This document shows positions 18,871 to 54,799 of a stretch of DNA of 64,000 bases, one piece after another. The stretch's first letter is position 1. Each line of letters starts with the position of its first letter. Under the pieces are notes generated by a model. The model saw only the letters and a list, made by a program, of their open reading frames with translations. It was not told the DNA's origin and did no database searches. The stretch is taken from positions 1 to 64,000 of the forward strand of contig AZLU01000159.1 in NCBI GenBank assembly GCA_002224055.1, in the 5' to 3' direction. The stretch is from Pezizomycotina sp. ARF18 (taxonomy: Eukaryota > Ascomycota). The position numbers were made by a program, and so were the translations under genes.

Positions 18871-20595
18871 TTATAGGGATTGGACAGTGGCACCCTCATT
18901 CCAAGAATCGATGGTGGCCTGATCGAGAGACTGTGGCCAGTCAAAGCTTGGGAGCTTGGAGATCTTGACGGTTCCGTCGCAGTTGAGGGAGATAGCACCA
19001 ATGAAAGTCTCATCGGCGCCAAGAGGACGTTCGAAGTATTGGCTGCATCCTTACCACCACCCTCAACGACCTTGGTAGCGTGGTTGAGCTTGCCACCTGA
19101 GCGCTGTGGATAGTCGAAACCATCTTGTCCTTGGCAGCGCTCGAGAGGACCTCGAAGGCGTCGATTTCACCACATCCAGAAGCCCAGCAAGACCACTCCG
19201 GATGGGGCGGATACATCAGCGTACGGGGGATGCGGGCGTTAAGGAGCCAGACAGAAGGCATGTCGCCGTTGAAACCAGTTTGACCATCGCTCTGGGAATT
19301 GAATTCGACGACGAAAGTCTTTGAACAACCACCCAACCCTCTGGAAATGAAGTTAGATAATTGGACAGAACAAGAAATTAATCGGGGGGCTGAAAAATCA
19401 AGATGGGAAAGAAGCTTTTCAAAGGAGCGACAAGGACATACTGTAGGCAAGATTTCCATAAGTGTAGCCGCAGCTGTCGCCTTCGCACTTCTGCGCCTGC
19501 CAGATCGAATATTCCTTGTTCGAAGGAATCTTCGTGTTCTTCTCCAGGCATTCCGGGGACGAGGCTGAAGCGAGACCGTTGGCTTTGCAATAGGACAAGG
19601 AGTTGCCGAAACAACTAAATAGCGGTAAAAGATTAAATTTCGTTCTCGAAAGAAACACTGAAGTTATGGTGATGATAAGGTGTGGAGAATAAGAACATGT
19701 GAAACTTACGACGACCAGGTTCCGGAACTACTAGCACCGCCATGTTGTTCATGAATAAAACGTTTTCATCCTTGACACCCTCAGTAGCACTGTAGTAGCT
19801 TACACGAGTGAAACCACCGGCCGCAGGCTGTCCGTTATCGCCAGCTCCCGCACCAGCACCAGCACCAGCACCCGCTCCTGCGCCAGGACAGCATCAGCAC
19901 CAGGGCCAGGGCCAGCACCAGCACCAGGGCCGGCACCAGCTCCGGCATCACCTCCAGGACCATACTGATCATTGGCAGTGGGGATGACAGTCGGGCTAGG
20001 AACGACAGTGGGAGTAGCCACGCCGTTGACCCAGACAGTGGAGGTACAATACTCCGTTTAGTAACGTAGTGCATCCTCTTGTGGAAGTGCGCGTGGTCGT
20101 GCCTCTTGCGGTGAGAGCGCTGTTCAGAAGTCTGCCTCTTACGCATCTTCTGGGCGTCAGCACCGCTGGTGGGAGTGTAGACAGCAAAGTTTTTGAGGAT
20201 CATGGGACCCCTGATGTGCATAGAAAGCTGAATTTAACAATAAGGATATATTAGCAAAATTTCCCCTTAGCTGGACGCAAAGGATTTTGACATGGGGAAA
20301 TTCATCTCCTAAGCATCCAAAAAAAAAAAGGAATTTACCTCTTCATTGAACGGGCGAGAGTCCACTATACGCCTTGGGAGCAGTCGTGACGCTGTTCATG
20401 TTGCAGGCACCATGGGGTCCATGTTCGTAACCGCCTGATACGTGCCATCCTGGCCAACGTTTTTGAAGCAGACCTTTTAGTCGCACCAGTATAGGCATAC
20501 CCGGCAATGTATTTTGCCCCAGCGTCGGGGTTAGCGTAGGCAGTGCCTGCAAAAAGCATAGTCGCCGCCGAAATGATACTGAGAACCGGCGCCAT
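18871..20595 (-). CDS. TOS1/YJL171C-type secreted cell wall protein
   Basis: This is a fungal wall protein of the Tos1/YJL171C family (Tos1_N glycine-rich domain followed by Tos1_C, a glycoside-hydrolase-like domain). Yeast Tos1 is covalently bound to wall glucan; enzyme activity is not firmly established. The start at 20593-20595 gives a signal peptide (MAPVLSIISAATMLFAGTAY), then the short N domain (YTGATK...VTNMDP, Cys-Asn-Met-Asn). SMHIRGPMILKNFAVYTPTS is the family signature. A Lys/Arg/His cluster (KMRKRQTSEQ, RKRHDHAHFHKR) with possible Kex2 sites and a Gly-Ala-Pro low-complexity linker (GAGAGPGAGAGPGPG, 19820-19960) come before Tos1_C (GFNGDMPSVWLLNARIPRT, CWASGCGEIDAFEVL). The tail is SLNCDGTVKISKLPSFDWPQ, ending at 18871. 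Frame breaks occur near 20470, 19860 and 19050. No GPI signal is seen, as usual for the family. Confidence 0.92.
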
Positions 20596-24699: not shown

Positions 24700-26574
24700 A
24701 CTCAAGTATGGGGTGCTCGTGTAACTAGCGAAATGCTGGACATCCGTACAGAGCTTACCCAAATTGACGAAGATTTCAAAAGCTACGTGGGATCGTGAAC
24801 CACGCCCAGATAAACTTATCCGAATTTGACCAAGAAGACTACGAAAGCCCTTTCCGGAATTGCCTCCCGTGACGGACAATGACAACGACGACCGAGCTTC
24901 GATGTGGGAATCCTTAGCTTGTCAAATACAGTGGCCACTCCGAAGGAAGATGAAGAGGTTGAACACGAGAGAGTTCAGCTCGGCTATCTGGACCAGAGTG
25001 CGTTGAGGGCAATGAACACGTGGAGTCTGAGGCGACTAAAGATGGTTGGCCGCCAGAGCGACATCGGGTCGGCAACAGCGGTGTCGTCAAGACGACCATG
25101 CAGCAAACGGGCCACGGAGCGTGTTAGTATTAAACTTCGAACTTTAAAGTTCTAATTTATAGTTGTTTCTATATCTTTCTTCGGTGGAAGGAGGCTAATC
25201 TTGGTACTCAGACCCCTCGCAATCCTTGGAAGAGGGCCTAGAATCGTCGGGGATAGAAAGGTAAACTCTTTGAATGTGACGTCACAGGTGCCTTTTTTAC
25301 TTTTTCTGCAGTATGTGGCAGCGGGTGCAGTGCAAGCTTTTGATCCCCGTCCGTATCGGCTTCGCTAGCCACAGCTTGTCGTTCCATCTTTCTCAACAAC
25401 GGTATATACGACATGCACGTCATTCTCTACGAATCTGAGTACCACCACTCTGCGAGCTTATATAAGCTAGCCGTCACGTCCAAAGCTGCCGAAATCGCCG
25501 CGACCCCTTCTCCACTACTCTCGGAACTCCCATCTGTAATGCCAAGACAACCTATGTCGAGGGAACATGTGAGTTCTTCTTTATTGACAGCAATAAGCCC
25601 GGTATAATCTATCTCTTAACAGCGAGACACGTCCTCTTCCACCCGGACAACGATAAAACGAGCTTTACACCTTCCATGACAGCGATCGGCAAAGCCGCTT
25701 TTCAAAACTCGTTGCGAGGCGATCGAGTCCACGGTTCAGGCTAAAGAGCTCGTCCTCGAATACTTCAAAGGTCGTGTAGAGGAGGCTGATAAGATGGAGG
25801 ATGAGGGTGATGCTGCTGCGGTACGCGCAGAGTCAGGGCCCGAGATTGTCAAGGTAGAGACGGAGATCGTGGGCTTAAGGCAGTTGCTCGAAGCGTTAGA
25901 AAGAATTGGACGACGGAAGAGAACCGTGTCATCGGCCACGTTGTTCTTTCTCCCCCCATCATTTTCAACTATGGCAGCGACGGTTTCACCGACGACTGGG
26001 CCGTTATTCAGGTCGAGCCCTCTATGATCGCCAAGTTTAACCTCATCGGCAGCGCTATTGATCTTCGCTCCGTAGCTGTCGACGAGCTCACGGGCTGGAT
26101 GTATCCCCACCCCGCCAATCCTTCTTCCTTCAAATATTCTGTCAGCGGTCATCTTCGATTCACCGGTGTGGTCTCGGACAAGGAGATGTATATGTCCGAT
26201 CCGAAGAACAAGGACCACAACAACGATACTGTGATTATGGTGCTGAAGAACGGCAAAACCTCCGACCTCACCGTTGGCCGTTTGAACACCATCCGCGCCT
26301 TTACCCGCGAATATTTTAAAGGCAAACCTGGTGAGATGTCGAAGGAGGTAAGCGTACTGCCTCGAAACTCAAAATCCGGGCCGTTCTCTTACCGTGGAGA
26401 TTCTGGGTTTGCGGTTGTTGATGGTAAGAGAAGAATTTGTGGTACTTTAACAGGGGAGACGGAGCCGCCGATATTTCTGACTGCACCTTTGTTACATCGA
26501 TCAACTTTCTTATCAAGCGTTTGGCTGAACATGGCTTTAAGGCCAATATCCTCTTTAAGGCCGCGGATCTCTAA
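24700..26574 (+). CDS. Fungal trypsin-like (chymotrypsin-fold) peptidase family protein, function unknown
   Basis: The product belongs to an uncharacterised fungal protein family with a chymotrypsin-like triad. The His lies in LLTARHVLFHPD (His codon 25628-25630) after EGTCEFFFIDSNKPG, the Asp in FTDDWAVIQVE (25994-25996), and the Ser in YRGDSGFAVVDGK (Ser codon 26402-26404). Between them are WMYPHPANPSSFKY, IGSAIDLRS and VGRLNTIRAFTREYFKGKPG, which are family hallmarks. An N-terminal region (MLDIRTELTQIDEDFKSYVG, then ELPPVTDNDNDDRASMWESL) and an acidic helical insert (EYFKGRVEEADKMEDEGD) precede the Asp. The C-terminus ADISDCTFVTSINFLIKRL to KAADL and a stop at 26572-26574 is in another frame, restored if one G is missing from the G run near 26453. 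More breaks lie near 24790, 25500, 25735 and 25905. The true start was not found. No signal peptide is visible. Confidence 0.75.
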
Positions 26575-28824
26575 ACGTTAATGGTTAGTTATTCTTTCAT
26601 TATTTTAAGCTTCTAAGTGTCTGGTAGGGGCCTAATTTGAACGTAATTGTACTTGTATCATGACCTGATAGTGATGAAGAAATTTCATAAAAAAAAAAAA
26701 AAAAAAAAAAAAAGAACGAGGCGCCAAGACACTGCAAAAGAGCAATATTAACCCACGCTTCAATATTTCAAATTCGACTGGAAAAATCAAAAACCTGAAT
26801 TAGGAAGGACCGTTTCCTGAACCTTAAAAAAAAAAATGAAATCAGGGGCTTTTCTCTGTTACAGAATCGCAACCACTATCTACAACCCCAACCCGCTTTT
26901 TCTCCCCTCTGCCTCTGCAAAATGTGCAAGGGAGGGGTTGACTGTTGATTGGGGTCTTGAGACAAGATGCCAAGTTCGGATAAGAGGAATGCATGTCATT
27001 TGCTCTAATTTCTTTTTCTGCTCTGTTTATCGTCCAGCGAAGGGTTATATTGTATTTGTTCCCGGGCTTTTTATTCACGGCCTCCTAACCTTCGGAGCTG
27101 GATACCGATCGCGATTGCAAGGAGAAAAAACGAGAAAGACCCCCGCGTAGAATGAAAAAGGGATCATCGCTTCTTTTTTTCTTCACCATCGCGCTCGGCA
27201 AGCAGGTTCCGAAAAATATTAAGTATTTAGGGGAAGATGATTAATTAACCAAAAGCTGACGTGGACGAGGGCGCTGCTAATCGTTACTATCGCCAATTAT
27301 TAAATTAAAGAAGGACGGGATGACTAGGAAGTGGATTTGAGCGCAATCTGTCCTTGTGCTGATATAAGAGCTTCATTAAAAGGTATTTCAACTCACGTGT
27401 TTCCCTTCCTCCGTGCTATCTTTCTCCTTGCCATTAATCTCTTGTGCGACTTGTTGAAGCAGGGTTGTTTTATTGGATAGAGCAACGTTACCGCACTCGT
27501 CTCTGCCAAAAAAAGAAAAGAAAGACAGAAAAGGGCGAAATGTCGTGCGGAACTGGCCTTTTGGCCAACAAGGGCATTGTTGTGGTGCCATTGGCCAATG
27601 AACTAACGATATAGTTTCTAGGCCTTTGTTCTAGGGCTGAGACAATTTTAATGGTCTGAATCCCTCGACCAATAACTTGGTTAATTTGGTCCAGCTAGAC
27701 AGGATATTCCTTTCCAGTTGGTGGAACACGACAAATTATTTCCATCGAGGATAAAAAGCGCATTCTCGTTTTCTTTTCTGAACATGGCAAGATTTCTCGA
27801 AGCTCCGGATAGAGAAAGAAAGGGGAATTAATCTTATAATTTTTTTTGTCTCTGGACTTGTCCGTCGCATTTGGCGAGAGGAAGAGGTTCTGCTTCCCCG
27901 ATAACGGCCAAGTCTTGGACGAAAGCTATTTTTAAATTTTTCCTCCTTTTTTCTTTCCGGACAGTAGTGTCAACACTCCCGATTATAATTCCCCTATCCT
28001 ATTAATCTTGGTGAAACTCCGAATCAGTCGATAAATGGTTCGAAGAATTTTTAGAACGGGCGTTAGTTGCCTAGGAGGGCAGAAAACATATCGGAAGAGA
28101 ACTCAAGATCAATACAGAGGAACAACATGCGGTGCGACGGTGTGGTTCTTGGTTCGGCAGACACTTCTTTTCTGTCTGCGATCTTCCAACCGCCGAACGA
28201 TAGGAGGAACACGGTATTTTGTTTGTGGCGTCAACGTTCCACAAGCGGATGCTTGGCATGGACTTCGAGATACCTTTCTTCGTTTTTCTCTTTTGTTTCG
28301 GGAAAAAAGAATAAATATAGGAACATTTCTTAGCTGTTTTCTTTCGGGTCAATGACCTGTTTATCCGTTATCTGGATAATCGGAATGCTCAAGGACAGTC
28401 TTTTAGCTTTCTTATGCAGGACGACGGAAGGGAGGGGCTGTGATTTTTTTGTTTTTGTTTGGAGGGTTACTGGTAGTAGACATGCGCAAGGGCGGCGAAA
28501 CGTCGCGCAACTGTGGTCGGATGTTTTAGGTCGCCGGCCATTTTGCTTTCCAACATTCTCAACTCCGACCAGTATTTCTCGAAGCAGAGCCGCGCCGTCA
28601 TTAAAAGATCTTACATTTTTTTTTTTTTCTTCTCAAAACATGGTATTTTATCATATATCATCAGAATTGCAATATTACGGATGAAATATGCGGCTCTCAG
28701 AAGATCTAACTGTTTGGCACTAATATATCGCTTCGTCTGCAGCTTTTTCAATAATAACTATATGATATGACGAACACGCGGGTATTTGTGATGCTATATT
28801 TGACGTATGAATTGCACAACAATA
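26575..28824. other. Intergenic stretch between convergent genes, no supported gene
   Basis: Holds an A run at 26689-26713 in the likely 3' UTR of the peptidase-like gene. ORFs at 26836-27150 (+), 28035-28355 (+) and the overlapping minus-strand ORF 28071-28352 lack domains and compete with each other in all frames. Confidence 0.55.
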
Positions 28825-30582: not shown

Positions 30583-33500
30583 ATGCCAAAGAAAGCCTTG
30601 TAAGTCGCTGGCGAAGACTGACCTTACGGGATGTTGCTGACCTTCTCTGCAGAGATTCTCGGATTCCGACGCTCATCCGCAATGGTGTACAGGTAAGAAG
30701 AACAGAACTCTAAGGTGTTCATGGGGAGGAGCTACGTTTTCTAACGCAATTGAACCTGCAGGACAAGAAGCGCTCCTTCTTCGTTATCGTTGGCGATCGC
30801 GCGAAGGATGTCGTCGTTCACCTGCACTACATCTTATCCGCCATTGACATCAAGCAGAACCGCTCTGTCCTATGGGCATACAAGCACAAGCTACTAGGCT
30901 TCACCAGGTTCGTCTCCACTGGTCCTCCTTCGTTCCACGTCAATTGTAGAGCTACTGACCTCTTTTCCTCCGTTAGTCACCGGAAGAAGCGCGAAACGAA
31001 GATCAAGAAGGAAATAAAACGTGGGATCCGCGAACCCAACTCGGAAGACCCTTCGAGCTCTTCGTCAGCTCGCAGAATATCAGATATGTATATTACAAAG
31101 AGACGGAGAAGATTTTGGGAATACGTACGGGATGTGCATCCTGCAGGACTTCGAAGCGATGACACCGAACTTGCTTGCCAGGACGATCGAAACCGTCGAG
31201 GTGGAGGCTTGGTGCTGCTGTTGCTGAAGACGATGACTAGCTTGAAGCAGCTTTATACGATGACGATGGTACTTGGAATCTTTAGCCGTTTTTTCGTGTG
31301 ATTTGGAGGAGGGCTAGGGTGGCTGACTTAGGTGGTGTTTTCTTAGGATATCCATTCGAGATATAGGACGGAAGCTCACGATGACGTTGTCGCACGGTTC
31401 AACGAAAGATTATCCTCTCGCTGGGTAGCTGCGATTCGTGTCTGGTCGTGGACGATGAGATGAACGTTCTCCCGATATCCGGTGGTAGGAGCGTGAAGGC
31501 CTTACCACCGGCTGGTTCTGAAGATAGTGCTAGGGCGAAGGCGAAAGCGGAACTGGAGGAGCTGAAGCAAAGCCTTGCTGATACCCCGCGTGTCGGATCG
31601 CTCGTCAACCTTGCAAAGACGGTGGATCAAGCCAAGGCATTACTCACGTTCGTTGATGCGATCGATGAGAAGACACTGCGCAGTACAGTCACTCTAACGG
31701 CCGCCCGTGGAAGAGGAAAATCGGCCGCCCTGGGTGTCGCCGTTGCCGCAGCCGTCGCCCACGGTTACTCCAACATCTTCATAACCTCCCCGAGCCCCGA
31801 AAACTTGAAGACGCTTTTCCAGTTCGTGTTCAAGGGTTTCGACGCCCTCAACTACCAGGAACATATCGATTACAATATCATCCAGTCCACGAATCCCGAT
31901 TTCAACAAGGCTATCGTGAGGGTAAATATTTTCAAGCAGCACCGCCAGACTATCCAGTACATACAGCCCGCGGATTCTCACGTCCTCGGACAGGCTGAGC
32001 TGGTCGTCATCGACGAGGCTGCTGCTATCCCCCTCCCGCTCGTACGGAAGCTTCTTGGGCCGTATCTCGTCTTTATGGCGTCTACGATTAACGGTTACGA
32101 AGGTACCGGCCGATCGCTGTCGCTGAAGCTCATCCAGCAGCTGCGCGACCAAGCGAAGGATCTACGAAGTCTCAGCAGCAGGAAGATGGAGAGGCTGTGG
32201 ATCGATCCGGTAGGACGAGCAGGCCGCAAGGTTCGGATAGAGGACCCGGCGGGAGAGTCCTTCGGGAAATCACGCTGGCGGAACCTATCCGTTATGCTCC
32301 CGGCGATCCTGTAGAATCGTGGCTCAATAAACTCCTCTGCCTAGATGCGACTTTGCCCACGACCAAGCAGAACAACCAAGGCTGCCCTCACCCGTCGAAG
32401 TGCGAGCTTTACAATGTTAATCGGGATACGCTGTTCTCCTACCATAAAGTCTCCGAAAAGTTCTTGCAAAAGATGATGGCTCTGTACGTAGCCAGCCATT
32501 ACAAGAATTCACCGAACGATCTGCAATTGATGAGCGATGCGCCGTCTCATCAGCTTTTCGTGCTGTTACCGCCGGTGGATGAGAGTTCTGGCGATCTACC
32601 GGAGCCTTTGGTCGTACTGCAAGTTGCTCTGGAAGGTCAGATATCGAAACAATCTGTTATGAACCAGCTTAGCCGGGGCATGCGAAGTGGTGGCGACCTT
32701 ATTCCGTGGCTGGTAGCGCAACAGGTATGCTATAAACTTGAAATACTCCAGATTATTTTATACATGGAGTAAAGTGCTTACGTTTTTTATGTGTGTGTAG
32801 TTCCAAGATGACGATTTCGCCGGTCTTTCCGGTGCGCGTGTTGTTCGTATTGCGACAAATCCGGATTATATGAAGGTCGGTATAATTCTTCTCAGTTCTG
32901 CGAAACTCTCGTACGACTAACATGTTTCCTCTCGTAAATATAGATGGGCTACGGCTCCCGGGCTCTCGAACTGCTCACGGAATTCTACGAAGGCAAATTC
33001 GCAAACCTGTCCGAAGACGGCGGCTTCGTCGACGAGAACATGGTCCGGGTAACCGACGCGGAGATCGAAGAATCGTCCCTGGAAACGGACAACGTGAAAG
33101 TCCGAGACGCAAACGCCATGCCGCCGCTGCTGATACGGCTCCAGGAGAAGAGACCAGTCGATATCGACTATATGGGCGTCTCGTACGGTCTCACGGCGCC
33201 GCTGCATAAGTTCTGGAAGAGGCAAAAGTTCGTTCCGCTGTATTTGAGGCAGACGGCCAACGACCTCACGGGCGAACACACGTGCGTTATGGTCAAGGCT
33301 CTTGAGCAGAAGCAGGATGCTTGGCTTGGAGCTTTCGCGAAGGATTTTCACAAGCGGTATATATCTTTGCTGTCGTACCAGTTCAGGGTGTTCCCGTCGA
33401 TACAGTCGCTGTCTATACTGGAGTCCGCCAGCGCCGGTGCTGCGCTGGATAAAACGCCTGTTTCGCGTACGTATCTACTCTTACGGTTTCCCGGATTTAT

Positions 33501-34273
33501 TATTCACTAACTAACGTACTCCAGCAATAACGAAATCCCAACTCGACGACCTCTTCTCCCCGTTCGACCTCAAGCGCCTCGAATCCTACGCGAATAACAT
33601 GCTCGACCACCACGTCATCGTCGACTTAATCCCCTTAATCGCAACGCTGTACTTCACATCCCGCCTACCCTCCTCCTTCAAGCTATCCGGCCTACAATCT
33701 TCCATACTCCTCGCCATCGGTCTACAGCGTAAAACAATCGACGACGTCGAAAAGGAACTTAATTTACCGAACCAGCAGGTACTAGCCATGTTCATCAAGA
33801 TCATGAAGAAAGTATCATCGACCCTTAATGGTATTCTTTCGGACGCGATCGGTAGCGAATTACCTGCGGCGCACGAAGGGAGGAAGTTAGTCGGCGCCGA
33901 AGAAGTTTTTGACGATGATGCTGGGGGTGTTAACGGGACTGCGAATAAATTAGTACCGCTGGAGCAGACGCTCGAGGAGGATATAGCGGAAGGGGAAGAG
34001 GAGACTAGTAAAGCTCTCAGGGAGAAACAGAAGGAGCTTATTAACGCGCTGGACTTGCAAAAGTACGAGATACCGTCCGCGCAGTCGGAATGGGATGACG
34101 CGGAGAAGCAGATTGCTGGTAGTAGTAGTAATGGCGCGACGGGTAAGAGCACGACGGTGAGTATAAAGTCTACGAAAGCAGCCGGGAAGAGGAAGAACGG
34201 AGAGTCCGCGAACGAGATTTACGAGAAGGAGATGGCGAGACAGTCGTCGTCTAAGAAGCATAAGAAGCGGTAG
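30583..34273 (+). CDS. KRE33: KRE33/NAT10, RNA cytidine acetyltransferase
   Basis: KRE33/NAT10 makes N4-acetylcytidine in 18S rRNA and tRNA and works in nucleolar small-subunit assembly. Exon 1 (30583-30599) and exon 2 (30653-30692) encode only MPKKALDSRIPTLIRNGVQ; exon 3 starts at 30762 with KKRSFFVIVGDRAKDVVVHL. The N-terminal domain includes GNTYGMCILQDFEAMTPNLL and the DUF1726-type ARTIETVEGG region. The helicase-like ATPase has Walker A AARGRGKSAALG (about 31700-31726) and Walker B LVVIDEAAAIPLP, then TINGYEGTGRSLSLKL. The GNAT part follows (HQLFVLLPPVDES, QISKQSVMNQLSRGM, ATNPDYMKMGYGSRALELL near 32850-32990), then the tRNA-binding region and a Lys-rich tail (SSKKHKKR). Total length is about 1,060 residues, as expected. 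One-base breaks lie near 31051, 31119, 31200, 31413 and 32200, all at short homopolymers or close to them. Confidence 0.97.
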
Positions 34274-42465: not shown

Positions 42466-45308
42466 TTTCTTGTCGCTTATGAAGGGTTGATCCTAGATTT
42501 AATGAAAAATAAAATGGGTAGTTGTTTTCGACAGTGGGAAGTGGAATTCCTGGTGTTCTAATATCAAGTTGTAGATTCGGCTAGCTATAGCTATGCATAT
42601 TGATTGATATTTTATAACACGATCGATTTACCTCCAGACAATTATAGAACCCAAATTCGTGAAGTTTAGAAAGAGTGAGAAATTCTAATAATTAGAATAG
42701 CTGGGCAAAATATATCTTTGAGACGGATATCCATTCAGGATTTTACTCGGGTTCTCAGGTTTTTACAAAGAGTTTTCTTGTATATTACTAAAGAAAGTTG
42801 TTTCATGCCCACCTCTTCACCATACGGAAGCAAGAAGGCTTTTTTCGTCTCTTCGGCTTAATCTTGGGCTCTAGTAGTCTGGAGGCTCTCGGGTCTCTAG
42901 ACTAGGCTATCGCAATGGTAAGAATATATTGTTGGGCATCATTGATAGTGATCACGGCGACTATCAGAGATCTTATATAATCATACGGGCTGTATATTGA
43001 ACATGTTGTATTTTTGTTGTATATTTCATTTTCGAAAAGATATACTTGGGGTAAGGAAATATGTCTTGCTCAAAAAATGAAATACAAATAGGCATCATTA
43101 GGAAAGAATGAAATTGAAGGAAGCATTTCCGGCGAAAAATGTTACAAGGCGATGCATGTATTATTATTAAGTATAATAACAAGTTTTCAAGTTTGTAAAG
43201 ATAATGCTATAACTTGACAGCGGTAGCGCACTCTTAGACGGACAGTATCGAGGTTTCTTTTCACTCATCGCAATTTAATGGCTTCTGATTTCTATGACTT
43301 GAAAAACCATATCCTTATCCTTGCCAATGTGCTCTTCAGGGTATGATAACCAATTTATAAAATATATATTTCCTTTTCTTTGAAAAAGGGAAGCGAGGAA
43401 AACGACTCAAAAAGTCAATTGACAATATGACGCATTTGTTATGAAAGAACTCGTAACGCAACGTTTAACTCGGTCCGAAACGGCCAGCTTAATGCTGCCT
43501 ACCAGCCCGTTCTAGAGTTACACCAGATATATATGCTAGAGGAGAACCTAGAAGGCAGGCATACAGCCTCGAGTGATGAAAGCGTGCAATTTGTGCTACA
43601 GCACATTTGAAAGTTTGATATTCTTTGAGCAGCGTTCAAGTACAAACTCCTGCGGAACATGACCACTGCAGGATACATGAAATAAGCGCTTGATCTCCAA
43701 CGTCAAGTCAGCCTTCTTTCAACTGTATAAACGTATAAACATAATCACGATACCCAAAAAAAAAAAAAAAAAAAAAAACAGGAAATATTTTGTTTGTTTG
43801 TTGTTTGTTTGTTTCGGTTAGATTCGATTCAGCGTTTAGACCGTTGCTAACTTGCTATTAACGATCTAGCGGGGCTTTCTGAGAAAGCCTCCGAGCAATC
43901 TATAAAACGACTACATTATTAGGGGAAATGGAGAAAATACTAAACGCCTTCACAAGACAAATTACAGTGAGAATATATTACGGAACGTATAACTCCTAAA
44001 CCGGATTTTTATTCCGGTCAATAAAGCCTCTGGGGAGTCCAGAGTCCTAACAGAGCCGTATTCATTCACAAACAATATACTCGAAACATTCACGTTATAG
44101 AGCCGCTCGCGACCGTTTCACTCAACAATAACACACAGTCCCGCGACCAAAGCGCACGTATGAAGTAGTTAATATATATCAAACCACGCAAACAAACAAG
44201 CGGGAAAAATAAGCACTTTCCCCATTTTGTGCTTTTTCTTTTTAATATAGAAAAACAAGATGCCGACTAGCTTTTTATAACGCTTTGAAGACGTTTGCTG
44301 ACAAAAAAAGGGGGGGGGGAGGTGAGTCAATAATGTTCGCGGTACCACTTCACGAGATTGGGCTTGAAATGAAAAAAGGAGTACATTTTCGATATCGCGC
44401 GGCCCCGACGCCGTGCCATATAGATAAAATTCAACCGGGGAGCAACGATTGGGGAGTCTGGAGACTAACTAATCGTAGTAAAGGGGGTAGATACCCGTAG
44501 GTTTACATCTTAGTAGATAATACCTTTCTTAAGAAAGAAAAATTTTTATAAGGCTGCCAATTTCGCTCGATTACGCGTTCAGAAGCGGTGGGGCCGTAAG
44601 ATGGGATAAACCGTGGAAACGATATGAAGCAAGAAGCGGTATACCGATCCTACGTCGTGATTCTCGTTAAATTGCATCATCGAGATGCTGATTATCAGGC
44701 GATTATCATCAGGAACATTCGAAAGTATATCAATAGGATAATCATCTAGTCGAATCTCCTAAGGAAGATCAAATGCAACGTTCCTCTCGGCATTCCTTAA
44801 GTTGTTCATGCAAAGTTATCAGGCATTCTCATTGCTGTAGATCTAGACCTGAGGAAGCATTTATATGACGATAGAGAATATATTTTTATTGTAATTGTAT
44901 TTCTCAATCTTCTGAGCAATACATGAAATGGTGTATACCTGGTATATATCGTCTGCAAAACTACAAAGACAAATGGAAAGATGTAATGATGAGGAACGAA
45001 GGATAAGGATAAATATGAATATAGATATTGGTATCATAGAATGCAAAATAAAATACAAGAAAATAGAGAATATTAGGAAATTTAGTAGGGAAAGTTATGA
45101 TACCGCTAAATTACACAAAAATAAAATAAAATAAGAAAAGCATTGAAGATAAAAAAGATTATAGATACACATGAGGCATGAAAAAATGAATAATTTTTTA
45201 TTTCATAGTCCAAAGGTAATTATTAAGAAGCTCTATAATATAATGGTATCAAGAATAGCAAAAAGGCAAAGAAAACTTTTAACTGTTTACAGAGCTGGTG
45301 TAGGAGCG
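42466..45308. other. Intergenic stretch without a supported gene
   Basis: About 2.8 kb with no ORF that looks coding. It holds an A run near 43757-43778, an (A)7(G)10 junction near 44305-44321, and a TTTG repeat (tttgtttgttgtttgtttgtttcgg) near 43791-43816. No tRNA could be folded from it by eye. Confidence 0.55.
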
Positions 45309-48271
45309 CTACCCTCTTTTCAGACCAAGCGACAATGTAACCGCTTGCTGCAAGTTGGTGAACTTGGGTAGCGAGGCACCGTAGCTGCCACTTCCTCCAT
45401 TGCTGTTCTTGCCATTTCCGTTTCCATTATCAGAGTTTCCGCTCTTGCTGCTGCTGCTACCACTACCATTTTGAGCGTTCTGGTTGGTAGCGTTGGAGCC
45501 TTTAATGGCGGCAGCGCTAACTTTAGGACTTTCCTTTGCCGGCGTGCTTGTCACGGGCAGGGAGTCGGCCTGAGCTCGTTCCTGCTTCGTGGGAGTAGCC
45601 TTAGCATCTTGTTGCTGTTGCTTTCAGTGGGGTGGTTCTTGCTTCTGGCTTCGCTAGCTGAGCAGACACCTCAGGAGATTGTACTTTCGGTGCCTGCTGT
45701 TGCTGATCTGGCTCGGCGGTTGCTTTGCGCTGCTGCTGCTGAAGATGAGCCATACTGCTGCTGAGAGGAGCTAGACTGTTGCTGAGATGAACCGTAACCC
45801 ATTGAGATGAGGACTCCTGGGCGGGAGGCGTGTACACAGGACTTGTGCAGCGTAGGACGTGCTGCTTGGCCACTCTGTTGATATCCACCAGCAGGCGGGG
45901 CGTATACTGGAGCTGCAGCCTGGGAAGACATCATAGGCGGAGCCTCGGCATGGCCGGAGCATATACAGGAGCTTCAGCAGGGGAGCTCATCGCTGGTGCT
46001 TGGGCGTACGCCGGGCAGAGCTGGTCGGTAGCGGCGCTTCGGCCATTGCGGAAGAAGTAGTGCACGGCTGAGACCGGGCGCGGCGGGCTCGGGCTCAGGC
46101 ATGGCAACATCTGCGGCATGTACGAGTTCTGCATGGCGGAGGAGTGGTGGTGCGTAACCACCCATGCCGGACCAGGAGTTCATCGGGCAGGCACAGTGGC
46201 AGTTGCAAGCCTGGGGTGGCTGCTGCTGCTCAGGAGACTGCGCTGGTGGAGAGTGTATGACGGAGCAGGTGCAGCCTGTATGGGAGCTTGCGCCGGCGGA
46301 GTGACAGTGACCGTGTTAACCTCTGTCTGAACCTGGTTCACGGTCTCAGTCTGGATCTGGTTAACGGTTTGAGTCTCAACATTATTGACCGTCTGAGTGA
46401 CGACGTCGGTCTGAATTGATTGACGGTCTCAGTTTGCACCTGATTGACGATTTGAGTCTGAACGTTGTTGATGGTCTGGGTGACAACGTCCGTCTCGAAG
46501 TGTTGACGGTCTGGGTCATCGTTTGGACCTGGTTCACGGTCTGAACGTAGGTGACGAATTTATCGCTCTCGACAGTCTCGGTCATAGTCTGAACCTGGTT
46601 GACGGTCTGAATATAGGTGATAAATTTATCCTTCTCCACAGTCTGCGTGACATCCCTCTCAACGGTCTGAGTCTGGAGGTAGACCTGTGTCTTAGTGATG
46701 TCGTTCTCCACGGTTTGCGTGACGTCCCTCTCGAGAGTCTGTGTTTGGACGTAGACTTGTGTCTTGATAACATCATTCTCCACAGTCTGTGTAACAGCTT
46801 TCTCAAGAGTCTGAACGTATACCTGGGTCTTGGTAACGTCGTTCTCGACGGTCTGTGTTTGAAGGTAGACCTGAGTCTTCGTAACATCGTTCTCAACGGT
46901 CTGCGTCTGAACGTATACCTGAGTCTTTGTAACGTCATTCTCGACGGTCTGTGTCTGAAGGTAGACTTGAGTCTTGGTAACATCGTTCTCCACAGTCTGT
47001 GTAACAGCTTTCTCAAGAGTCTGAACGTATACCTGGCTTGGTAACGTCGTTCTCGACGGTCTGTGTTTGAAGGTAGACCTGAGTCTTCGTAACATCGTTC
47101 TCAACGGTCTGCGTCTGAACGTATACCTGAGTCTTGGTAACATCGTTCTCAACAGTTTGAGTTTGCGTCTGGAGATAGACTTGGGTCTGTAACATCGTTT
47201 TCGATCGTCTTTGTAACGTCATTCTCAACCGTTTGAGTCTGTAGGTAGACCCTCGTCTTCGTAACGTCATTCTCGACCGTTTGGGTCTGTGTTTGAACGT
47301 AGAGCTGGGTCTTGGTGACGTCGTTCTCAATGTCTGAGTCCGCACGTAAGTGATGAACTTGTCCTGCTCCAAGGTCTTGACATAGGTAATGAACCTATCC
47401 TTCTCAACGGTCTGAGTCTGGACGTAAACTTGCGTCTTGGTAACGCGTTCTCGAGCGTTTGGGTCCTGAAGTAGGTGAAGAACTTGTCCTTTTCAATAAC
47501 GTCCGTCTTTGTCACATCATTCTCAATAGTTCGAGTCTGAATATAGTTCTTGGTTTCCGTTTCCGTAAGGGTTTCGAACATAGTATCAGTCTTGACCAAG
47601 AACTTGGTGTATAACTGGACGACCGTAGTTGGGATTTCCTCGACTTTAGTAACAAACTTCTTCACCGTCTCGGTCTCGGTTTCCGTGTAGATGACAGTCG
47701 TGGGGATCAGACGAGTGTAGACCTTGGTCTCGAACATGGTTTCAGTTTCCTTGTAAACAACAACCTTGGTTGAAACATAAGTAGTCGGCACGAGCTCGTA
47801 TAGGTCTTGGTCTCAAGATCGACTTCCGTCTTAGTAACGTGAATAGTCTTAGGAGGAAGGTGTAGAACACCGTGACGGGCTTCGTCACAACGTCAGTCTC
47901 CTTCACTGTTTCCGTAACCTTCGTGTCTCTGTCACAACATAGTTGCCACCCTTATTGTTGTAGTTGTTATTCGAGTTGTAGTAATTAGGAGGCGCATTGT
48001 ATGGAGGCGGTGAATATTGCTGCGGAGGTGCGTAGTACGACGGAGGGGTATTAGACGCCTTGTACGCATTCGTTGACGACGTATACCCATATTGCTGCCC
48101 TTGCCCATACGAAGGAGTTTGCCCGTACGAAGGAGCCTTCGATATCTCGCTCACATCCACCGATCCAATTTGGCCGCCAAAGCCAGGAGCCGATGCCTGG
48201 GCGATAGCCATGAGCTGGCCCACCACGGCAAAAATTGCCGCCGATCTTAGACTGTTTGCTGACCTCGTCAT
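45309..48271 (-). CDS. Putative secreted Thr/Val/Gln-rich tandem-repeat protein
   Basis: I do not recognise a named family. The start at 48269-48271 gives a signal peptide (SLRSAAIFAVVGQLMAIAQA), followed by a Tyr/Pro/Gly/Asn-rich region (YGQTPSYGQGQQYGY, YYAPPQQYSPPPYNAPPNYY). From about 47900 to 46330 the protein is almost entirely Thr/Val/Gln/Glu-rich: first irregular ETETETVKKFVTKVEEIP-type units, then a 16-residue repeat (TQTVENDVTKTQVYLQ and variants with YVQ or LERDVTQ), then VEKDKFITYIQTVNQVQTM units. The C-terminal third is Ala/Pro/Tyr/Gln-rich (APVYAPPAGGYQQSG, SSQQQSSSSQQQYGSS) and ends in a Ser/Gly/Asn-rich tail (SGNSDNGNGNGKNSNGG), stop at 45309. Several frame breaks occur, so the exact length (up to about 980 residues) is uncertain. 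No GPI signal is clear. A surface or extracellular structural or adhesive role is inferred from composition. Confidence 0.75.
46500..47340 (-). repeat. 48-bp coding minisatellite inside the secreted repeat protein gene
   Basis: The unit encodes ENDVTKTQVYLQTQTV or close variants and repeats about 10 times or more with mostly synonymous differences. A higher-order duplication of 210 bp is also visible: the stretch starting CACAGTCTGTGTAACAGCTT occurs at 46781 and 46991 and the copies stay nearly identical for over 150 bp. Confidence 0.85.
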
Positions 48272-48960
48272 TTTCTTTATAGGATATGTGAAAGATATAA
48301 GAAAGAAGGATAGACTCTCAAGCTGGTATTGTAAAAACAGAACTGGTTCAAAAAATATATAGATAATGAGCGTTCTTTCAGTCCTGCTTCGTTTCCTCTC
48401 CAGGAGGTCTTGATAGTCCTAGCAACTATGTTAGCTAAACAATTCTGAGATCAATCAAATCAACCGAAAAGCCAAGCGGGAAGATGATTACTCACAAAAA
48501 GTAAGAAAAATTAGATAGAAACGAAGGGCATTAAAAAGAGAGTAGAATGTAAAAAGCGGTCCTTGAGATCCTGTCCCTTGATTTCCAGCCGCTGCTGATA
48601 TAAAAATGGACGGTCAACGTGCAAAGAAAGGAAGGGAAGAAAAGAAAAAAAAAAGGGAAGGAGAAGAGAAGAATAAAAGGAACAAACAAAATGAATGGAC
48701 CAGCAAAACAGTTGAGGACGAGGAAGAGAAGAAAAGAAAAGAGAAGATCTAAGGGGACGGGGAATTAGAGATCCATATATTCAATTGCGGGCGCCTCCAT
48801 CCCCACCATCTTTTCGTCGGATGTGCAGGAACTTGCAGCAAGCAAGATGTTTGTTTATTGTCGCAGAAAAGAAAAAAGAAAAGAAGAACAGAAAAAAGGA
48901 AATACAGCGATCAATGTAGAAAAAGAAAAGAAAAGGTAAAGGGAAGCAAAGCGAAAAATA
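48272..48960 (-). promoter_or_regulatory. Pyrimidine-rich upstream region of the secreted repeat protein gene
   Basis: On the minus strand, roughly 48600-48960 is a long CT-rich stretch (plus strand rich in GAAAAGAAA and GGAAGGAGAAGAG). The first 90 bp upstream of the ATG contain a TATATATT-like patch near 48353-48361. The arrangement is like that upstream of the TOS1-like gene. Confidence 0.4.
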
Positions 48961-50693
48961 GCCAGGCCATGCACATGCTTTTTTCTCCTTTCACGCTGTA
49001 GCCTTTCCTCCCGGTGAAATCTGACAATTGTGCCCTATTCATAGATATCTGGGTGCTGCTATACCTCCATCTCTGGGATCGGCTCTTCGGTTCACTGTGA
49101 CCGCAACGACCCGCAACACATTGGGTGTCAAAACCCCTGGACATTAGGTCGATCCTGGAAAGGTCCTGACTGACATTACTATCCAATTTACGGTTCAATT
49201 GAGGTCGCAACGGTAGCAGTCGAACACGGTTATAGTGCCCACCTCTTTTTTTTTTTTTTTTTTTTTTTCTAGACTGAGACGACCGTTCGCGAAAAGGGAA
49301 GTGGGGATTTCAGGGCGATGCATCGCCACTCCTAGTAGAGCGTGTGGAAGCGATTGTGGAACAAACCACTCTTCAGTATAAGATCCGCAATCTATATGAG
49401 AAATTATCCCAATAAGAAAGACAAATTCGAGAGGGGGCCTTTGTTTACCGCGTTTTACGGGAAACCGTCATCCGAAAGCAGGTGTGAATTGTGAATAGAG
49501 GAGTATAGCTATAGATAAGGGTAGTATCCCAAACATCACCCTGTTTCAGAGCCTCCGTTCTCCATTGATCGTGACGGTTGTACTCTATCACCAAAAATAT
49601 CATGAAGAGTGACTATCATTTCATCCTGTAACACGTCGACGCCGGGTATTTCACTTGGCAGGGGGGAAACAAATATATTTGGACGGCAGCGGCCCTGTAT
49701 ATGAAAACAACGTCCTCCTCTATCGCCGAAAGAGTAGTAGAAAGAAGAGTCAGCTTCTGCCTGGCGAATTGAACGAAGTAAAAAAAGGATTTAATACTTG
49801 TTTGATGAGGGAGAAGAAAGCATAATTCCAACTGTCCCAGATAACCACCTGCTATTAAAAGAACCTGTTATCGAGAATATAAAACTCCCAATAAGTATAA
49901 GGGCGTCCAGAAACTGACGCATACGTATCGTCAAGGCCTGAAGAAATGGATAGAGATTGAGTTAGAACTGGAAGCAAAGAGGGATAAATCCCTCGTTCAA
50001 CAAATGATGCGAACAATACTCATGTCGCTTGTCAGTTGCTTGATTGGTCAGTCGCGAGTAGTCGAGAATAAGAATTGAATACTATAAGCTTTTTTGTTGA
50101 GAGAATTTCATGACGGTTATTCTTAAAGGAGGAGACTTTTGGAGTATTGAAAATATTCATAGTTAATTATTTCGGCCGGTACTTAATTAATCTATTTTTC
50201 AATAAGCAATATACCGTCTGAACAATTTCAGAATCGAGACCTCGAAACGATTTTTAAACTACTTTCTCAAGAGTCATACTTGTTCGACTCGAGCCCTGCT
50301 AGCGACAGTGAAGGACAAAATACTGAGCAATTTGGCCACTCACTGGGTATTCCCAGCTTAAGAGGAACGAGGCCTGAATCAAGTAAAAGTCTAGCAATCC
50401 CAGCACGACCTGCCTTATCATCTCGGTAATGAACTTTCGCGGTGCTGGGTTCAGGGCCTTTACTGATATCTGATACAGAGCTATAACAGGCGGTTTAAGT
50501 CTAAGGATTATTTTTTTCGCAAAAATCGATGCAGCCTCACGCAAGGAAGCAGCCAAGCAGCTCCCCAGGTGCAGTGGGGATCTACAGCGAACCTCCGCCC
50601 ATCGCCGGCGTGTATACATTGGAAACGTCAAAATCCGACGGCTATGTTTTCACTTCCAGCGGCAGTGGCGTTCTATCGTACGATTTATTGGCT

Positions 50694-50730
<37 letters not shown>

Positions 50731-51545
50731 TAGGTATGTTTGAAGATATTACGTTGAAATCGAAGATTGACAGTAAGAGTCGCATGCTCAAAAGTTTCGT
50801 CCATCTTTGTAGAAGAAACAACAAGCTCGCTTTCTTTCTCTCAAAAGCAGAAGCTGTTCTTCTCGGAGCTGCCAGCGTTTTTAATCTTCATGTTTATTTC
50901 GTCGGTTATTCATTTGCTAAGTATCTTTAACGTCGATCTCAAAACAGACGTCAGTAGCTTGCAGCAGCTGATCACTTTGGCGTGCCTTGGCCCCTTCGGT
51001 CAATTTATTAGACGACCATTGGCATGCGGCGTTAGCGTTCCTTGGGAAAACCCCGCAAGGTGCAAGTCGTATGCCTGCAGCCCACGCGAGCAAGGGGGAG
51101 TTTGACAACGAAATCCTCGTATTTCGATTCTCCAGTCCTAGTACCGTTTGCGGGTTGGGAACTTCTGAGGCGGTACTGTTTCGAATCTCCAGAAACCTAT
51201 TTATACTTCTTACCATCCGGGGAAAAAAAAGGAACAAATGCATCAGTTTCCCATTCTTTCTTTACCATTACCTACTGACATCTGCTCATGCTGTGGACTC
51301 TGAAGAACTAATTGCGGGCATGGAATAAGAATTCTCCGCCGTCCAATCGAAAATTCTCTGCTGGTATATGTTTGAGACGAAACCATTTTGAAGAGCTGGT
51401 TCACGTTGATTTTCAGTCGTTTCTTTTTTTTTTTTTTTTTTTTTTTTGATTGATAAGCGGTCGTGATTTATTTTTGCGAGTTTTTTTTTTCCTTCTGCGT
51501 TATAATGCTTTTAAATTATTCTTATTAGTTATTTAGGGCTGGAGT
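48961..51545. other. Stretch without a firmly supported gene
   Basis: Contains T or A runs at 49250-49268, 50695-50728 (34 A) and 51425-51447. A plus-strand ORF from 50529 begins MQPHARKQPSSSPGAVGIYS and reads GVYTLETSKSDGYVFTSSGS before entering the A run; it has a protein-like composition but no recognisable domain. ORFs at 50767-51105 and 50987-51328 (+) include a hydrophobic segment (LPAFLIFMFISSVIHLLSIF). These could be exons of the candidate gene that follows, but I could not join them. Confidence 0.4.
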
Positions 51546-51943
51546 TTTGATTGCAGACCCGAATCTCGGAAAGAATTTACCTGAGCGAGGATTTAGAAGC
51601 GTATCAGATGTTTTGTGGCTTGCTCCACCACTGTCGCGATATTGCGATTTTGGCCCTGCAAGATATTTTCCGTACGGTCTGCAGGTCTGAGTCTAATATT
51701 AAACATTTCTTTGGGGTAATTTTCACGATCTCATGTTTTTCTTAGGTTCACTCCACATTAATTTCGACGATTTTGAAAACTGAGAAAAGAGCACCACATC
51801 TCATTGATATACGAGAGAACAGAAGAGTTGCTGGCTGTAAGGCTACGGTGAATATACTTATATTCTATTTCGTTCAGTTGTTATTTACAAATTTATTCAG
51901 GCGTCTTCCCTCCAGCGCGATAACCACCAGATTCCAACCTGAA
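51546..51943 (+). CDS. 3' exons of a possible unrecognised gene
   Basis: I do not recognise the product. Three exon-like segments join in one frame with normal splice sites. Acceptor ttgattgcag leads into TRISERIYLSEDLEAYQMFC then GLLHHCRDIAILALQDIFRT, ending at a gtctgc donor. After about 70 nt, acceptor ttcttag leads into VHSTLISTILKTEKRAPHLI then DIRENRRVAGCKAT, ending at a gtgaat donor. The last acceptor, ttattcag, leads into ASSLQRDNHQIPT and a stop. The joined frame is unbroken and soluble-protein-like. The 5' part is unknown; the open stretches from 50529 may belong to it. Confidence 0.4.
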
Positions 51944-52025
51944 GATCCTGTCTAAGACGATCCCGAACGATGCGGAATCAATGCAACCAAAGTCTAGATA
52001 GATCAATGCATACATTTGGATGGGA

Positions 52026-52091
52026 ATAAGGCACACACACACACACATACACTTACTCACTCACAGGCACACACACACATTGACACACACT
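52026..52091. repeat. Degenerate (CA)n microsatellite
   Basis: Runs of CACACA are interrupted by short TTACTCACTCACAGG and TTGA segments. It is simple-sequence DNA in a non-coding stretch downstream of ATG14. Confidence 0.85.
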
Positions 52092-52814
52092 TTCCAAGAC
52101 AGTTCACGTCTCGAGCTACCCAAGCCTTTCGGCTTTTTTCTTTGCATATATTCCTCGGTTTGTCACGATTTTACATGACGATCCTGATTGTTCCAAGGGC
52201 CTCGTATATTGAGAGTTCGGAACTGTCTTGTCTGTAAACGCGTACGTATATGGCCCATATATGATCCAGAAAAATAGTATTCCGATATATTATCATTTAT
52301 CGCAAAGTAAGGCGCTCTCTCTTGATTTCTAAGAAATGTATCTTCGAACCCCATCATATTGCGAAAGGATTGGGTCGAAGTAAATGTTATGGCTTTCTTA
52401 CGATGCGTGATCGAGTAATTTATGAGTACGAATTTGTGGGAAGAAGGAATTGCGCAATGCATTTACCAACAATATCGTTCCAACAGATCTTCCTGGTAAC
52501 CGATGTGGGAGCTCGGGACAGGCAACCCTTTGAGAGGAAATCAAAACGTGTACACTATACTTGAGGTGAGATGAAATGGACTTTCTAAAAGATCTAAATC
52601 TCCGACCTATATCGTTATAGATTAAAAATAATACTACGTCGGCTTCTATTCTTCTTTTTTTCGATATAGGATGGGGGTTTAAGAAATACCAAGATTCGGT
52701 AATATATCTCACGTTACCGGGAGCTCCCATGTTGGTATTAATTTTCCCACATCACAATTGTTGGTTCACGATGTTGATGATGCTAGTTAAATTAAATATT
52801 GTGCATGTATCTCG

Positions 52815-54799
52815 TCACAACGTGTTGACTTTTTGACTAATCATTTTATAGTGGTTGAGCTTCGTCCAACCACCGGATACATCTTTCCCCCCGTTGACCA
52901 CGCTCCGAGCCTTGAAGGCAGGGGACGCCGTACGAGCGGGGCTGCCGTTAGCGTGAACCTTGCTAGGACTCCCTGTAATAGAGACCCCTTCGTCGGCGTC
53001 ACCGTGCCATCTTCGGCGACGATATCATTATCCTTTGCTTGGCACGTACCCTGACTCCGCGATCATTGTCGAATCGGCGGTAGCCTCCGCGGCTTCTTCC
53101 AGCGCCTCGTCCTCGATGAGGTCCCACTCCGCCGCCGTAGATTCCCCCAGCAGTAAAAATTTCGTCCTGTCCATCAGCATCCCCAAATTAACCTTCCACC
53201 CCGCCATGTGCTCGTGACCCTTCGCCGATCCCAAAAACTCCTTCGCGCAGGCGTGGTTCACCATGCCGAACATCGTGTTATCGCCGGCGCCGTTTCCTTC
53301 CTCACGTTACCAGCGGCGGGGATTTTCCTCCTGACGCTGCTGCGAGGTTAGGTGTAGGCAGCGGCGAAACAGTAGGATCAGATATCAGCGGAATATCGCT
53401 CGCGACAACCGCCGCTGGTACGTCTTCGTCGGCGTCGCCAGGAGTAAATAGTACAGATTCCTCCCCGGCTGCCAGACGTCTTCCACTTCCCCTACCACTT
53501 CCTCCACACCTTGCGACCAGCACATCCACGAGACGTTGTACGCCAGCATGCTGACCCCTCGATGAACAGCGCGTAGCGGTTCGAGTCCGACGACGACAGC
53601 TGGAGTAAAGGTACTTCGATGTTCAGCTCGCGCGGCGGGACTTGCTGGATATTCGGATGGAGGGGTGCGGCGAACCGCGCTGCGGTAGCTGGATCTCGCA
53701 GGGTAGCTTGAGGCCGAGGTACGAAGCTACCAGGACGGTAAGGTGCACCAGGTGACCGAGGGAGACCGTGAGGTTCGTGGGGTTTATATCTGTGTTGAGA
53801 GCTCGTTAGTCATATCCATATCATTATTAAAAAAAAAAAAAAAAAAAATTAACTTAAATGAAAAACGGTAAAGAAGCTCGTCTTACGGTTCAGTTGCCTG
53901 ATATCCGGTATCACAACGCCATTAATCATGTAATCAATACCCCTCTTCCTCCTGCGCTGCTTGAGCGAATGCAAGCTCGCCGCTTCCCTGCACAAAAACA
54001 CCCTCGCTTCCCCTGTTAGGTCGTGCACAACGTTCGACGCCTGATTCTTTTACGTATATCCCTCTTAACGTCGCTGAGCGCCTTCTCCTTCTTCTGCTCG
54101 AATACGTTCCTCGCTTCCTTTAGCGCATCCTTCTCTCCTTATTCGCCTGCTGCAGCGCACTAATCTTCTCCGAACAGTTCGCCATCTCCCTCCTCAACCC
54201 GTCCGCGTAACCTGTATATCGCTAACCCGACTCCTGAGCTCCTCCGTCTCGTGCCTCGCCTGCAGACACGCGCCGTAGTCCGAATCCTCGCTCAGCTGCC
54301 AATAATAAACTCTCCTGCGTCGTCGCGGTCTTAACTACGACGACGGACTCGTACCGGCGGGCGTACAGCTTATCCCGCACGCAGTCGGCGCACGTGAGCT
54401 TCGTCTGCGAGCGGTCGCACAGGTTACACCTCCCCGTCGGCTTCGGGGGCGTCTTCGCGCGGGTCACCGGTTGCGCGCCTACCCCTCCAACAACTCCGAC
54501 GGGGCTGTGCGACCGCTGGCCGGATAGCGCATTTAAGCGGAGCGTGTCGATGGCTCCCGGTGCTGATCCGTGGCGCTGGAGGTGTTGCTGCTGCTGCAGA
54601 CGTGCTCGGGGAGAGTTATTCGTGGCGGGGGAGCGTAGGGTGACGACAGCGACGACCCCGCCACCGCTGCCTGCTGAGAGTGGGGTTTAAGGGGGAGTGC
54701 GGGTAGGAGTAGTGGTGGATGGGCGGAGGCGGGCGGTGGACATTGTCGTAGATGGACGGCTGCCGGGCCTGGTGGTGGGGCGCTAGACTGGAGATCCAT
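52815..54799 (-). CDS. ATG14: ATG14, autophagy-specific PI3-kinase complex I subunit
   Basis: ATG14 targets the Vps34-Vps15-Vps30 PI3-kinase to the phagophore assembly site. The start at 54797-54799 begins a Pro/Ser-rich region (MDLQSSAPPPGPAA). The Cys repeat CNLCDRSQTKLTCADC (about 54385-54432) is typical of the ATG14 N-terminus and is followed by coiled-coil-like segments. The ATG14/UVRAG domain shows REAASLHSLKQRRRKRGIDY, NGVVIPDIRQLN, INPTNLTVSLGHLVHLTVLV, ASYLGLKLPCEIQLPQRGSP, ELNIEVPLLQLSSSDSNRYA and MLAYNVSWMCWSQGVEEV, then FLLLGESTAAEWDLIEDEAL and the usual end GGWTKLNHYK, stop at 52815. An intron near 53795-53885 holds an A run. Frame breaks are frequent (near 54535, 54290, 54060, 53670, 53560, 53300 and 53020), more than in other genes of this window. 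Confidence 0.88.

Follow-up and report, generated by a model that had tools for sequence, protein, structure and literature searches.

The most telling property of the gene described here, which lies on the minus strand of the window (the whole analysed stretch of DNA, 64,000 nucleotides long), is a strict two-residue phase of Thr and Gln. Over nine repeat pieces (540 residues) 129 of 132 Thr residues stand in one phase, against at most 90 in 10,000 shuffles, the phase having been chosen per piece and identically for data and shuffles; the three off-phase Thr all fall within the piece 47447-47812. In the same nine pieces Gln (69/69) and Lys (34/37) are found opposite Thr, and Asp (23/29) on the Thr side. 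One face of the 179-residue core holds 41/41 Thr, and it carries acidic residues too, as 10/10 Asp and 12/13 Glu are on it; the opposite face holds 30/30 Gln, 11/11 Lys and 9/9 Tyr, and Val occurs on both faces (14 and 22). The alternation also appears as a mean identity of 0.209 at even lags versus 0.048 at odd lags (six repeat pieces), the even-odd difference having in 500 shuffles a standard deviation of 0.0057 and a maximum of 0.034, and in the head and tail pieces this contrast is slight or absent. The effect is sharper than in the earlier note on this DNA, which had spoken of alternating beta-branched residues.

It would be logical to suggest, and we give it about an even chance, that we deal with a genuine, once-found gene by which a filamentous ascomycete makes a secreted wall or matrix fibre protein with a Thr-rich face, and that the frame breaks in the gene are assembly indels. 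That the product is a real, unusual secreted repeat protein is very probable; its function and fold we infer. With this alternation each repeat would run as an extended beta-strand, dominated by Thr on one face and carrying Gln/Lys/Tyr on the other, the Thr face may be O-mannosylated and/or packed into sheets, and the repeat region would then form a long fibre or stalk. Both ends, the Tyr/Pro head and the Gln/Ser/Gly tail, could be flexible and possibly cross-linkable, and hold the protein in the wall or matrix. A bolder version, which we regard as distinctly unlikely, is that the repeat domain of about 500 residues is a single phase-locked, two-faced beta-ribbon, with a Thr and acidic side against a Gln/Lys/Tyr side, that builds up a rod, be it a solenoid, a sheet or an intertwined trimer, for which the literature found has no counterpart among fungal walls.

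The gene starts with an ATG at 48271 and ends with a stop at 45309, in agreement with the coordinates given in the earlier note, which had left out the strand and the breaks in the frame. Its parts follow one another as signal peptide, Tyr/Pro/Gln head, degenerate TETETV-type repeats, a main array of VENDVTKT/QVYLQTQT, NNVQTQ-type repeats, a Pro/Ala/Gln region with a single Cys cluster, and a Ser/Gly/Asn tail:

45309..48271, minus strand: entire gene, 2963 bases, in frame pieces in this assembly.
47924..48271, minus strand: signal peptide (judged by eye, about the first 28 residues), then a head rich in Tyr/Pro/Gln/Asn; together 116 aa in a single frame, with Cys, KR/RR and sequon all absent.
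47447..47918, minus strand: N-proximal repeats, degenerate, of TETETV, PTTVV and YTKFLV type, in three frame pieces; 39/42 Thr in phase.
46502..47444, minus strand: main repeat array; four pieces, the longest uninterrupted one of 179 aa (46502-47038); Thr in phase 75/75.
46312..46496, minus strand: C-proximal NNVQTQTVNQVQTETVNQ-type repeats, in two frame pieces; 15/15 Thr in phase.
45609..46311, minus strand: Ala/Pro/Gln/Tyr-rich region; single Cys cluster CNCHCACP near 46200, three stretches without clear frame.
45309..45608, minus strand: Ser/Gly/Asn tail; two N-glycosylation sequons, C-terminal end ...LPKFTNLQQAVTLSLGLKRG before the stop.
48356..48361, minus strand: TATATA, a possible TATA box, maybe by chance, some 90 bases ahead of the ATG.
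45197..45202, minus strand: AATAAA, a possible poly-A signal, maybe by chance, about 107 bases past the stop.

Upstream of the gene, at 48419-54221, no stop-to-stop ORF of at least 150 aa occurs for nearly 6 kb, which in this assembly is not proof of gene-free DNA.

The signal peptide, the Tyr/Pro-rich head and the Ala/Pro/Tyr region followed by a Ser/Gly tail, all proposed before, are recognised again: the hydrophobic N-terminal stretch IFAVVGQLMAIA (Kyte-Doolittle mean 2.28 over 12 residues) is followed by AQASA, as seen by eye and hydropathy, the head is rich in Tyr, Pro and Gln and free of Cys, and the tail composition is found in the translations of the pieces. A signal-like start, repeats and the Thr phase together support the view of a secreted, repeat-built and beta-prone product. 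At the C-terminus the best 12-residue hydropathy window is 0.73 and a GPI signal is not recognisable, the frame there being possibly wrong; wall anchoring of the protein would be a guess, given no clear GPI signal. The repeat pieces hold no N-glycosylation sequon and no KR/RR, and a single KR among all 16 pieces stands close to the tail end. The Cys cluster CNCHCACP (46145-46255 of the window) is isolated, with Cys in 0 of the 15 other pieces.

Sixteen-residue repeats, as noted earlier, do exist, and within a 181-residue piece of the Thr/Val/Gln/Glu repeats the identity at lags 16 and 32 is 0.45 and 0.40, respectively; the period of 16 is accompanied by others, since the 11 motif starts of the core stand 8, 14, 16, 22 or 24 residues apart, every one of these spacings being even. 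The main array is built of 8-residue half-units, for example VENDVTKT plus QVYLQTQT (16), and includes LEKAVTQT (8) and a 22-residue unit as well; nine regular 16-residue units were found by motif. Pro, Gly and Cys are all absent from its four pieces.

The repeats are coding, with the appearance of selection, because the differences between them are strongly concentrated at the third codon position: in 84 in-frame pairs 863 differences are distributed as 156/96/611 over positions 1/2/3. The pairs were 48-base windows of DNA identity at least 72% inside repeat pieces, one pair per diagonal and 48-base block, and, as they share sequence, no true probability attaches to this bias. A pN/pS of 0.07 (9 units, 36 pairs) was set aside, the units having been picked by protein motif.

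As for the fold, a simple meander with tight turns that keeps Thr constantly on one face is unlikely on geometric grounds, because hairpins with turns of two or four residues would put Thr on the other face every time the chain turns. By the same geometry the phase would fit an even-rung solenoid, a parallel in-register stack, three-residue turns or a single extended chain. Two single-sequence AlphaFold2 models consist of strand and coil without helix, at very low mean pLDDT (41.3 and 33.5), and the strands of the first track the repeat by eye, with breaks near END; because of this very low confidence the case for beta-structure rests on the sequence pattern, and the models speak neither for nor against a particular fold, the stacked strands suggested in the earlier note included. 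A Foldseek search with the 179-residue model gave 78 matches with E of 10 or less, of which none reached 0.001 (best E 0.32). Many of the best 50 of these 78 we take, by their names, to be beta-solenoid proteins, and a pLDDT of 41 leaves this resemblance without weight.

Neither Pfam (9 of the 16 pieces scanned, the other 7 being of 18 to 38 residues) nor NCBIfam (4 of 16) gave a match above cut-off, and the core alone matched no PDB sequence, the best being a penicillin-binding protein at E 1. The earlier statement that no named family fits therefore stands for the pieces scanned (Pfam 9/16, NCBIfam 4/16, PDB 1/16), fungal homologues being outside this scope. Weak Pfam matches of the core to EF-Ts_N (E 0.0056) and MU2_FHA (E 0.014) are below cut-off and were taken as composition noise. 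In its own genome the head, the repeat core, the N-proximal repeats and the tail each match this gene alone at E <0.1, these counts being lower bounds; the next-best places, for the head at E 0.153 on contig C2 and for the tail at E 0.512 on contig C37, were taken as chance. The core was also compared with three non-fungal collections, where absence says little: contigs of bacteria and archaea (84,980 species; 24 pattern matches, 0 confirmed), IMG/VR (2 pattern matches, 0 confirmed) and plasmids (tblastn, none at E 0.01). Among the papers listed in literature searches, titles and the starts of abstracts named no protein of such layout.

The gene is not one open frame in this assembly (46.36 Mb, 408 contigs) and was read as 16 open pieces, 921 codons in total; the division was made by eye with open stretches picked, and the pieces are stop-free partly by construction. 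The frame assignment in the low-complexity tail rests on composition, and no frame was assigned there to 46006-46144, 45803-45859 and 45706-45718. At 11 of the 15 junctions the pieces abut to within 5 bases, at one they overlap by 19 bases, and at three there are gaps (139, 57 and 13 bases, the unassigned tail stretches); introns are ruled out for frame changes between pieces which abut within a few bases. The frame changes at 14 of the 15 junctions, nine times by a one-lost-base step and five times by a two-lost- or one-gained-base step.

Assembly indels are the likeliest cause of these breaks, because HSP90 and some RNA-polymerase genes are broken too. HSP90 of the same assembly (C137:55600-57900) has family matches in five places with start frames 0, 2, 1, 2 and 0, the fifth falling within the span of the fourth, which makes at least 5 frame changes in about 1.5 kb, and its 5' part appears by eye, in a frame-by-frame reading, to change frame even more often. 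Matches to the second subunit of RNA polymerase on C15, C82 and C236 are in pieces or contain stops, some perhaps due to introns, and those on C257 are unbroken in an open frame of 879 aa. In the window itself the gene at 31385-34273 (plus strand), an RNA cytidine acetyltransferase NAT10/Kre33, served as a frame-shift control. Its matched piece scores 230 bits with 5jpq, 204 with 6ke6 and 144 with 7mq8, which we take to be the proteins of Chaetomium thermophilum, yeast and human, respectively; this order agrees with a filamentous ascomycete as the source, the placement resting on Kre33. It has one clear frame change between 31403 and about 34100, where the flanking matched stretches are 24 bases apart and leave no space for an intron, and a second interruption near 33470-33530 that by eye looks like a GT...AG intron. 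A Methyltransf_28 gene in the window also has its family matches in two ORFs of different frames, the second being below the family cut-off. The breaks in HSP90, polymerase, NAT10 and Methyltransf_28, alongside the unbroken C257, mean that the assembly is indel-rich in places and clean elsewhere. With 14 frame changes in 2.96 kb the repeat gene is well above NAT10 and similar to HSP90. Short-read alignment is described as unreliable in repeats, where errors often survive polishing, in the available part of one source (PMC8812927), and such repeat-linked polishing errors may add to the frame breaks here, though the unique tail is also affected.

The other readings partly overlap with the preferred one, and their likelihoods are not exclusive. 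A decaying gene, in which the frame breaks are real, is to our mind quite improbable: the change of frame at 14 of 15 junctions is denser than in the nearby NAT10, the three tail stretches without clear frame would fit and the bias at silent sites could antedate the decay, but HSP90 is about as densely broken in the same assembly, and the breaks resemble single frame steps, not stops (though the pieces were picked as open). We consider it rather unlikely that the repeats form an unfolded mucin-like stalk, an extended chain with O-mannosylated Thr and a phase left over from an old repeat of two codons. The Thr/Val alternation could suit such a stalk as well. The abundance of Thr (41 of 179 core residues), the four core pieces without Pro, Gly and Cys and the low AlphaFold2 confidence would agree with such a stalk, while the phase has been kept despite diverged third codon positions, and because of this combination something seems to hold it. 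The earlier note had likened the repeats to those of fungal adhesins or amyloid-like wall proteins, a reading which is drawn from composition. An amyloid-type adhesin, where molecules would stack through uncharged stretches (TQVYVQTQTV, for example) and glue hyphae together or to surfaces, as the short Ile/Val/Thr cores of Als/Flo do, is in our opinion unlikely, if still a reading to be taken seriously. The regular 16-residue unit does contain a 10-residue uncharged Thr/Val/Gln/Tyr stretch, and catalogued fungal adhesins often combine a signal sequence, repeats and amyloid-prone segments, according to the part of the catalogue available (PMC6023273), which is the combination that speaks for such an adhesin here. 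Of the features by which adhesins are recognised, the gene has an N-terminal secretion signal (hydrophobic core and AQASA site, by eye and hydropathy) and Ser/Thr-rich tandem repeats, the latter by Thr with hardly any Ser. Against it, the known cores are of 5-7 residues in the same available part (PMC6023273), whereas the entire array repeats here, about one fifth of core residues are charged, and the Pfam matches (9/16 pieces scanned) include no Als, flocculin or other known adhesin domain. With the Als/Flo GPI-type adhesins, as far as that catalogue excerpt describes them (PMC6023273), the gene shares a signal peptide, long Thr-rich tandem repeats and possible beta-aggregation; it differs by having no recognised binding domain, GPI signal or Als/flocculin family, and perhaps also by its strict Thr/Gln phase over hundreds of residues.

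Two further readings borrow their mechanics from rods known elsewhere. In one of them, which we hold highly improbable, 16-residue coils with two TxT motifs (TKT, TQT) form an ice-binding or ice-nucleating solenoid with water-ordering Thr arrays, as proposed for InaZ and Mortierellaceae proteins. The 16-residue period and the TxT motifs are present and resemble the InaZ-type proteins, bacterial and of Mortierellaceae, whose 16-residue coils carry TxT, SLT and YGS in the portion of the source at hand (PMC12978214). Unlike what that portion describes (PMC12978214), the repeat pieces lack Gly, SLT and YGS and have mixed spacings, of which 8, 14, 22 and 24 break the register, and 9 regular units stand against 23-42 repeats in the fungal proteins. 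The ice-nucleation family was not listed at E up to 10 in a search of 7 pieces, where HMMER filters discard many weak matches, and with SLT/YGS absent and the register broken InaZ membership was rejected. In the other one, a trimeric beta-prism rod of the phage-spike kind, three chains with octads, an N-D turn and alternating strand residues would be wound around each other, and this we find very improbable. The octad VENDVTKT is similar in layout to octads of T4 gp5 (e.g. VRGDETKT), the gp5 C-terminal part likewise favours lags 8, 16 and 24 (0.20, 0.20, 0.19), and both proteins have two-residue alternation and are rich in Val/Thr; Pfam lists Gp5_C at 10.4 bits (E 0.83) and at 10.2 bits (E 0.93), and Gp5_trimer_C at 8.2 bits (E 3.8), scores far below the cut-offs. 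The fungal octads, however, are without the Gly, alternate octads of the 16-residue unit are without the turn, and the alignment with gp5 does not rise above shuffles, its score of 39 being matched in 207 of 500 shuffles that keep the phase and in 120 of 500 full ones, for which reason homology to gp5 was rejected. Judged by sequence, the gp5-like and the InaZ-like readings both seem to fail membership, and for each only a likeness in the way of working would remain.

The preferred secreted fibre protein can also be compared with other repeat or wall proteins of fungi. The A-regions of Candida glabrata Awp proteins are not known to be made of short tandem repeats. The Awp beta-helix proteins resemble ours as fungal wall proteins with stacked beta-strands (presumed here), but their A-regions combine a right-handed beta-helix and a beta-sandwich and are pectate lyase-like, as stated in the available part of the source (PMC8746771). 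Rep1 and the Kex2-processed repeat proteins are likewise secreted, consist mostly of repeats and have a proposed surface role, and differ from our gene, as far as the available parts of two sources go (PMC4617103, PMC6339444), by the KR/RR sites that its repeat pieces lack; a Kex2-processed repeat protein was rejected on this ground.

Adhesins of filamentous ascomycetes are little known at the molecular level, as put in the available part of the catalogue (PMC6023273). If the phase-lock reflects structure, the gene would offer a beta-fibre from nature in which Thr dominates one face, and would help to understand how filamentous ascomycetes build surface fibres. On the practical side, the gene calls and 'pseudogenes' of this assembly are suspect, as HSP90 and second-subunit RNA-polymerase genes are split in it, and gene finders can miss genes of the present kind, here in 16 pieces, in indel-rich assemblies.

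Elsewhere in the window, an ORF at 25811-26581 (plus strand) contains a GDSGFAVVDGKRRICG stretch and has no Pfam match at E 0.1. This stretch is reminiscent of a trypsin-type serine protease. At 19841-19962 there is a CCAGCA hexanucleotide repeat of 20.5 copies with 70% match.
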